From Chloroflexota bacterium (GTDB lineage: Bacteria > Chloroflexota > Dehalococcoidia > Dehalococcoidales > UBA5760), in NCBI GenBank assembly GCA_015222205.1, contig JADFUW010000007.1, forward strand, positions 1-32,866: DNA of 32,866 nt. Reading direction: 5' to 3'. The position numbers and the translations under genes were made by a program. Positions within the stretch are counted from its first letter, which is position 1; each line of letters opens with the position of its first letter. This document shows positions 2 through 30,995 of this stretch, one piece after another. The notes under the pieces were generated by a model, which saw only the letters and a list, made by a program, of their open reading frames with translations, searched no databases and had not been told where the DNA came from.

Positions 2-325
2 AAGAGCGTACTTGAAGAAGATGATTTTATCCAGAGCAAGGCTTTCCTGCGTTCTTTTATTAAGAGAATCCAAGTGAATGGCAGTCAGGTTACAGTAGAC
101 TACAAGCCACCATCACCTGCGAGATATGGCAGTGGTAAAGAGGTAACCGAAGTTCTGCCTATTGTTACCCTTGGTGGAGCTGAGGGGACTCGAACCCCTG
201 ACCTCCTCCGTGCAAAGGAGGCGCTCTCCCGGCTGAGCTACAGCCCCGCTTATCAAAGGTATTATAAACAAAAGAGGGTCTTGTTGACAATTTACCCTGA
301 GGTCAGGGTGAAGAGGTCGTGTTGA
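2..325 (+). CDS. C-terminal end of a probable site-specific serine recombinase (5' end outside window); frame continues antisense through tRNA-Ala
   Basis: Frame 2 is open from base 2: KSVLEEDDFIQSKAFLRSFIKRIQVNGSQVTVDYKPPSPARYGSGKEVTEVLPIVTLGGAEGTRTPDLLRAKEALSRLSYSPA... to TGA at 323-325. The FLRSFIKRIxV...VxYKxPxP pattern resembles serine recombinase C-termini; the catalytic domain is not in the window. Confidence 0.6.
   Translation, partial: KSVLEEDDFIQSKAFLRSFIKRIQVNGSQVTVDYKPPSPARYGSGKEVTEVLPIVTLGGAEGTRTPDLLRAKEALSRLSYSPAYQRYYKQKRVLLTIYPEVRVKRSC
172..247 (-). tRNA. tRNA-Ala (anticodon TGC), CCA encoded
   Basis: Reverse complement GGGGCTGTAGCTCAGCCGGGAGAGCGCCTCCTTTGCACGGAGGAGGTCAGGGGTTCGAGTCCCCTCAGCTCCACCA gives a full cloverleaf with TGC in the anticodon loop. 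Confidence 0.96.
261..290 (-). promoter_or_regulatory. Putative sigma70-type promoter of tRNA-Ala
   Basis: Minus strand: TTGTCA (285-290), 18-bp spacer, TATAAT (261-266), just upstream of the tRNA 5' end at 247. Confidence 0.65.
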
Positions 326-446: not shown

Positions 447-1253
447 ATGACAGTAGCTAATATTGCTATCTTGCTGGCAACCGGTATCGGTGTTGGCTTC
501 GCCGGCGGTCTTCTGGGTGTAGGCGGTGCCTTCATTATGACACCGGTTCAGTATATGGTATTCACCAATATGGGCGTCTCCCCAGATATAGCTATAAAGT
601 TGGCTTTCGGCACCAGTCTAATGGTGATTCTGCCTACTGCTGCCAGCGGTGCCTGGAGGCATCATAGGGAAGGAGCAGTGTGGTGGAAAGCGGCCCTTAT
701 TATGGGTGGCTGTGGTCTGGTTTGTGCTTTCGGTGGGGCAACTCTGGCTAGCTATCTCCCCGGGGTAATACTAAAGATAGTCTTTGGTGTTGTAGTCATA
801 GCAGCTGGTGTCGGCATGCTCATCCGTGGCCCAATGGAGGCTAATGAAGAACCGAAGAAGAACCCCTGGCTGTGGGCAGTCTGGGCAGTGCCGGTAGGAC
901 TCATTAGCGGCCTCGTTGGTCTTGGTGGTGGTATATTAGCCGTTCCCATAATGGTGCTGGCACTCAAGTTGAAGATGCATGATGCGGTAGCTACATCCTT
1001 AGCCGTTATCATGATTACCAGCATTGGGGGTATAGTAGGTTATATTGTAAACGGGCAGGGTATCCTTGGATTGCCGGCCCATTCCATAGGCTATGTTAAT
1101 CTAGAGTCTTGGGCATTATTAGCTAGTACCAGTATTGCTATGGCACAGGTTGGGGCCAGAACTGCCTATAGGCTACCTGCCAAGAAACTAAAGTATATAT
1201 TTATTGGTGTCATGTTCTATATGGGGCTGAGGATGCTCGGCATCTCTGGCTGA
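447..1253 (+). CDS. Sulfite exporter TauE/SafE family membrane protein
   Basis: 268 aa, hydrophobic, two Gly-rich repeats (GVGFAGGLLGVGGAFIMTP and GLISGLVGLGGGILAVPIM) typical of TauE/SafE. Confidence 0.88.
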   Translation: MTVANIAILLATGIGVGFAGGLLGVGGAFIMTPVQYMVFTNMGVSPDIAIKLAFGTSLMVILPTAASGAWRHHREGAVWWKAALIMGGCGLVCAFGGATLASYLPGVILKIVFGVVVIAAGVGMLIRGPMEANEEPKKNPWLWAVWAVPVGLISGLVGLGGGILAVPIMVLALKLKMHDAVATSLAVIMITSIGGIVGYIVNGQGILGLPAHSIGYVNLESWALLASTSIAMAQVGARTAYRLPAKKLKYIFIGVMFYMGLRMLGISG

Positions 1254-30861: not shown

Positions 30862-30935
30862 GGGCGGTTAGCTCAGTTGGTCAGAGCGCTGCGTTGACAT
30901 CGCAGAGGTCAGTGGTTCAAGTCCACTATCGCCCA
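30862..30935 (+). tRNA. tRNA-Val (anticodon GAC), CCA not encoded
   Basis: GGGCGGTTAGCTCAGTTGGTCAGAGCGCTGCGTTGACATCGCAGAGGTCAGTGGTTCAAGTCCACTATCGCCCA folds as a full cloverleaf; anticodon loop TTGACAT. Confidence 0.96.
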
Positions 30936-30995
30936 CTCTGGTTCCTCCTAATCGACTAATCTGACTGTTCTAATTGTGTTGTTTTGTGTAAGGCA

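Follow-up and report, generated by a model that had tools for sequence, protein, structure and literature searches.

A recombinase reading frame at the left edge of the DNA analysed here (32,866 nucleotides of an UBA5760 genome of the Dehalococcoidales, in the following called the window) runs antisense through a tRNA-Ala gene and finds its stop codon beyond it. This raises the question whether the edge of an integrated island is present at this site, and what becomes of a recombinase gene whose last codons are those of its target. Quite probably, the left edge of the window is the attL of an island, integrated by a large serine recombinase at the 3′ end of tRNA-Ala(TGC), whereby the native tail of the enzyme would have been cut off.

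The recombinase frame and its tRNA target

The frame described at this position in the preliminary description is confirmed as frame +2 with 107 codons and without an earlier stop (Table 1). Base 1 of the window is also base 1 of contig C28 of the MAG (941 kb, 32 contigs, 89.8% complete), and therefore a leftward extension of the frame is impossible in the assembly. The assignment to a serine-type recombinase was borne out by L037, a full-length large serine recombinase of the same-genus genome G005: its C-terminus matches residues 1-59 of the frame, and 48 of 86 residues (56%) are identical between the two (E=1e-24). Thus, the homologous C-terminal region of a large serine recombinase is present in the window. 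The catalytic domain that was to be looked for upstream was found in the relative and not for this copy: L037 has the domains Resolvase, Recombinase and Zn_ribbon_recom, whereas the window copy stops at the contig start before the catalytic region, and C28 as well as C24, the contig with a second copy, end within the gene. A PF00239 profile search of the MAG for the recombinase body had as its sole hit a different, unrelated serine recombinase on contig C27 (locus L009, 469-1947), which adjoins a ParB-like gene and does not have the tRNA fusion pattern of this family. A search for the window recombinase in phage genomes gave no match.

ARAGORN and Rfam agree with the earlier claim of a complete tRNA-Ala gene on the minus strand, here with anticodon TGC. 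The promoter box suggested for it is present, with 11 of 12 matches to the consensus (one found, 0.4 expected in shuffled sequences), and is a consensus match only. After codon 59 of the frame there follow 48 residues encoded by the host, close to the approximately 50 estimated before; the stop is located 153 bp beyond the 3′ end of the tRNA and the recombinase gene overlaps attL. Antisense readings of tRNA genes are often open, and the window from position 179 onward is exactly that, yet a spurious frame without any recombinase has practically no probability left, since the match of residues 1-59 to full-length recombinases already refutes it for this part and the identical fusion frame occurs in 33 relatives.

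Table 1. Features at the left edge of the window.
Feature	Position	Strand	Evidence or remark
3′ end of large serine recombinase gene	2..178	+	open-frame residues 1-59; 5′ part lost at contig start; homology to L037
P′ half of attachment site, GTTCTGCCTATTG, in coding sequence (VLPI codons)	152..164	+	filled versus empty tRNA-Ala sites; codon bias
tRNA-Ala(TGC), probable integration target, intact	172..247	-	ARAGORN; Rfam RF00005, 69 bits
Putative crossover dinucleotide GG; C71-C72 of tRNA acceptor stem	176..177	.	palindrome centre in three junction sites
Host-encoded replacement tail: antisense tRNA-Ala and its upstream region in the recombinase frame	179..325	+	stop TGA 323-325
Sigma-70-like promoter of the tRNA gene (TTGTCA, 18, TATAAT)	261..290	-	consensus match only
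TauE/SafE family permease, chromosomal flank on the tRNA side	447..1253	+	PF01925, E=1e-53

The gene order tRNA-Ala(TGC)-TauE is common to G002, G004, G005 and G008 of the same genus, and G002 and G008 carry no recombinase at this site. Therefore, chromosomal DNA is present on the right, and the island is to be placed to the left of the window, as had been proposed. A tRNA-Val(GAC) gene further inside the window (30862-30936) lacks a P′ arm on its 3′ side and appears to be a vacant target.

The fusion is found in the whole order. The C-terminus of the recombinase was detected in 72 of its 156 genomes and in 125 of 393 genomes sampled from the class. All 33 full-length recombinases with an adjacent tRNA lack a stop codon before the tRNA; it occurs inside or beyond the gene, 12-270 bp into or past the target. 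The tRNAs used are those for Ala (three anticodons), Val (three), Ile, Met, Asn and Leu, and the choice of the target tracks the recombinase phylogeny (8 changes, compared to 17.5 in label shuffles). In viral contigs of IMG/VR, relatives are likewise fused to tRNA-Ala, Val, Ser and Leu, and one has its stop at the start of a tRNA-Gln; a circular contig with an intact recombinase gene was not found in the scan of these contigs. The remark that a serine enzyme at a tRNA is less usual than a tyrosine integrase holds in general, but not for this order, in which tRNA targeting is the rule.

An attachment site in the coding sequence and further copies in the assembly

The codons for VLPI coincide with an attachment half-site (GTTCTRCCTATTG, P′ arm) located 11 bp from a GG centre, and the opposite arm (P) is an inverted repeat. 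Within the genus, filled tRNA-Ala genes show GTTCTRCCTATTG or a close variant at a distance of 7 bases from TGG, whereas empty ones have unrelated 3′ flanks. The codon usage is biased accordingly: valine in VLPI is encoded by GTT in 53 of 54 cases (29% elsewhere in the same genes), the proline column by CCT in all 35 (background 16%) and isoleucine by ATT in 36 of 39 (background 31%). The DNA-level constraint on this region begins abruptly 28 bases before the end of the match. At junctions of two islands, a palindrome about GG comprises 23 of 27 positions in G006, 18 of 26 in G037 and, more weakly, 15 of 26 in G005; in G006 and G037 far fewer positions match once the centre is moved from GG. 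Such inverted half-sites around a central dinucleotide are the arrangement of a large-serine-recombinase attP, the P′ arm of which is present in the window.

Empty and filled sites can be compared directly at tRNA-Ala(GGC). In the empty site of G036, the flank ending in TTTTAGCTTTA directly abuts the tRNA gene; in G037, a close copy of this flank abuts a P arm about 27.8 kb away, and two tandem islands of 9.7 and 18.1 kb lie between the tRNA gene and the host flank. As the GG centre corresponds to C71-C72 of the acceptor stem, the island would supply the discriminator base and CCA of the tRNA. At some filled sites (loci L051, L059, L220 and L234), CCA is not encoded in the tRNA end which the island supplies.

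The second recombinase copy of the MAG is located at the end of contig C24, adjoining tRNA-Ala(GGC). Both copies are identical over window positions 134-182 and then diverge inside the tRNA, with 2 of 110 bases different before the tRNA, 17 of 76 inside it and unrelated sequence past it. A displaced long 3′ fragment of tRNA-Ala, which had been anticipated at the far att site, was not found in the MAG (89.8% complete), where a 23-mer with up to 3 mismatches detected just the three tRNA-Ala genes. The expectation was wrong for a serine recombinase att site; because the sequence shared at such a site is here about 6-11 bp long (TGGTGGAGCTG), the lack of a long second copy does not refute the island. 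A search of the MAG for P arms, directed at the far end of the window island, retrieved solely an arm on contig C22 (TGGTGGGCC) which does not match tRNA-Ala. This arm (2107-2136, locus L188) marks the far end of another island, 2.1 kb from the contig start, with a P arm and the tail GPTRTVDRTFTLTFSLISLI followed by a stop, and fits a target ending in GGCCCACCA, such as tRNA-Ile. The original left flank was sought via the empty sites of G002 and G008 without a useful match; therefore, this neighbourhood is rearranged or missing.

On contig C21 (24526-24624, locus L003), tRNA-Ala(CGC) is accompanied by only the last 10-12 recombinase codons, beside a host gene; this is what an earlier island left behind as a relic or scar. 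Such remnants, of which another with 141 codons is found on contig C77 of G006, and the absence of the recombinase body from the MAG would also suit a truncated pseudogene at the window edge with no island left there. We regard a dead relic as improbable, since two nearly identical open copies are present at two tRNA genes. Moreover, C28 and C24 both terminate within the recombinase, where a repeat would be expected to break the assembly, and this fits recent insertions.

The far island end and the native tail

In relatives, the P arm at the far island end carries the recombinase frame on into a conserved C-terminal tail with its own stop. By DNA pattern alone and with at most 1 mismatch, 95 P arms were found in the order among the matches listed, in 61 of 156 genomes, compared to 2 matches for the reversed control; the set is restricted to this threshold, as with up to 3 mismatches the total is not above the control. 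At 68 of 72 distinct P-arm sites the first stop in the recombinase frame is at codon 15-25, whereas the other frames give 3 and 5 sites, and therefore integration appears to cut off a native tail. Of the 15 P arms in complete genomes, 10 can be paired with a P′ arm at a distance of 9.7-100 kb, on the correct strand and side, and none with one on the wrong side, while random placement gives a mean of 1.1 and never as many in 20,000 trials. Accordingly, it is the far island ends that harbour the tails. The DNA upstream of the core is usually unrelated host sequence and in 12 of 72 sites the P′ arm of another island. At such a P′ arm the frame can pass from the body into a tail; for example, in G037 it reads ...KEVLPIETLG-GAEVAVGRTFQFIFLIS up to a stop.

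Beyond the core, the tails are of the type xGRTFxLTFSLxx or GPWGTVPELLFEKKGLIPALQQLL, each followed by a stop. The peptides read at the 72 sites share GRTFxLxFSL, with hydrophobic residues alternating at positions 9, 11, 13 and 15, beyond the arm itself. A second class (class A) has the tail GPWGTVPELLFEKKGLIPALQQLL, which at 30 loci begins from this same core, preceded mostly by unrelated DNA, and the dN/dS of this tail beyond the arm is about 0.14. For class B tails, the value of 0.73 is weak, being nearly saturated and based on 9 codons; the case for coding in this class rests on the frame, the stop position and the F-x-L-x-F-x-L pattern. In some genomes, the class A tail (loci L266-L295) outnumbers the recombinases, with 16 matches in G136 and 10 in G069, pointing to many relics or island ends devoid of a recombinase. 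A dispersed REP-like repeat was considered for the PELLFEKK tail and rejected, as 30 copies start at the att core in one frame with a dN/dS of 0.14; some of these copies could be relics, because in a few genomes the tails exceed the recombinases in number.

From the fusion of gene and tRNA, the att arms, the palindrome, the empty and filled sites, the far-end tails and their coding signature, all of them features of the genome sequences, the following mechanism can be proposed. The attP would be situated within the recombinase gene, with the last conserved codons (VLPI) serving as P′ half-site and with the crossover at GG, 11 bp beyond. Past the crossover, the P half-site would continue the same frame into the conserved tail of about 17-28 residues and its own stop. 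Insertion would then cut the gene at the crossover: the body would stay at attL, fused to the antisense reading of the target (in the window, 48 residues from tRNA-Ala and the DNA upstream of it), and the native tail would be left at attR on the opposite side of the island. The body would be rejoined with a native tail by circularisation or by the tandem insertion of a second island, and for the tandem tRNA-Ala(GGC) islands of G037 the predicted circle junction is AAGTTCTACCTATTG...TGGTGG...CAGTAGGTAGAACTT. The recombinase body, P arm and tail of the window island itself are unassembled, and its split is inferred from relatives, including G003, G005 and G006 of the same genus.

The native tail is presumably translated and functionally important, and it should matter when the gene is intact, i.e. 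in the circle or at a tandem junction. Most likely, an integrase of full competence is encoded by the circular form, and the integrated form yields an enzyme with an exchanged tail, whose excision activity is weaker or different. With its catalytic N-terminus whole, this integrated version may still be produced and end in the antisense-tRNA tail.

One may object that an ordinary serine island sits at a tRNA, with a gene that merely has no stop of its own at the end, that both tails are inert, and that the conservation at the far end reflects DNA constraint on the att arm. Indeed, the P arm is conserved as a DNA site in its own right, and the replacement tails vary freely with the target tRNA; from the wide range of their stop positions it follows that the enzyme may tolerate any tail. 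For dsiB of Dehalococcoides, variable, low-efficiency translation was put forward by McMurdie et al. 2011 (PMC3146451) as a trivial explanation. However, the conservation extends 30-50 bp past the arm and is stronger at codon positions 1-2 than at 3, a single frame is kept with the stop at a fixed distance, and the dN/dS of class A is not expected from a constraint on DNA level. Hence, two inert tails have little likelihood, and the reading of a conserved tail that is severed by integration is preferred.

For the role of this tail, the setting of direction is the most attractive possibility that the sequence comparison offers. Tentatively, the tail exchange might act as a state sensor: the native tail, available just in the circle or in tandem islands, would determine the direction in which recombination proceeds, and the antisense-tRNA tail would lock the island until a second insertion restores a native tail.

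Known systems and meaning

The closest known case belongs to the same order. According to McMurdie et al. 2011 (PMC3146451), dsiB in the ssrA-specific genomic islands of Dehalococcoides always overlaps attL and has its stop beyond the island, its full function is suggested to be perhaps restricted to the circle, and it is part of a six-gene integration module (dsiB, dsiA, a recF-like gene, parB, mom and a polymerase-domain gene). Both systems share a large serine recombinase, the 3′ overlap with attL, a stop in the flanking gene and tandem islands, and the window is an instance, at a tRNA target, of the overlap of recombinase and attL reported for dsiB. Unlike the ssrA islands, which use the tmRNA gene, the target is tRNA-Ala(TGC) here and Val, Ile, Met, Asn or Leu tRNAs in relatives. 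The crossover is placed in the T-loop in the description of the ssrA islands (PMC3146451) and at the centre of an acceptor-stem palindrome here, and a conserved tail cut off and left at the far end of the island, as proposed here from relatives, is not reported in the parts of that paper cited.

Islands at tRNA-Ala of Dehalococcoides, as characterised in the relevant portion of McMurdie et al. 2009 (PMC2764846), have a site-specific recombinase beside the tRNA and repeated 3′ fragments. The tRNA-Ala target and the neighbouring recombinase are the same in our case, whereas a recombinase reading into the tRNA, as seen here, and a far-end tail, as seen in relatives, are not stated in that portion. 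In contrast to tRNA islands of tyrosine integrases, there is no long displaced tRNA 3′ fragment at a far end within the MAG, which is 89.8% complete.

The domain order is that of the large serine integrases of the phages A118, TP901-1 and SPbeta (YokA), and the C-terminal domain of A118 matches residues 254-498 of a full-length relative. The attP sites of A118, TP901-1 and SPbeta YokA are located beside the integrase gene and are not known to lie inside it. Unlike these enzymes, the present family has an extra segment after residue 498, which holds the att arm and the tail.

The closest working analogue is the suicidal integrase of the archaeal SSV type, with an attP inside the integrase gene, which is split by integration and restored in the circle (reviewed in PMC8371274). 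As in that type, P′ and P arms lie in one reading frame and the gene would be split by integration, with the tails observed at far island ends in relatives. The SSV-type enzymes are tyrosine recombinases whose parts int(N) and int(C) are both inactive, whereas a serine recombinase would here keep its catalytic domain intact and lose a short tail.

In the literature searched, we found no earlier report of a severed conserved tail, and this feature appears to be new. In the review mentioned (PMC8371274), self-disrupting recombinases are considered exclusively archaeal; a widespread family of bacterial serine recombinases would thus perform a milder form of self-disruption, with a conserved tail lost at each insertion. 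This would give a concrete answer to a question left by the work of 2011, namely the true end of a dsiB-type gene, and exact att sites are supplied for islands of an order of organohalide-respiring bacteria. A control mechanism for the direction of recombination becomes testable, and annotations of chimeric recombinases that end in antisense tRNA may be explained.
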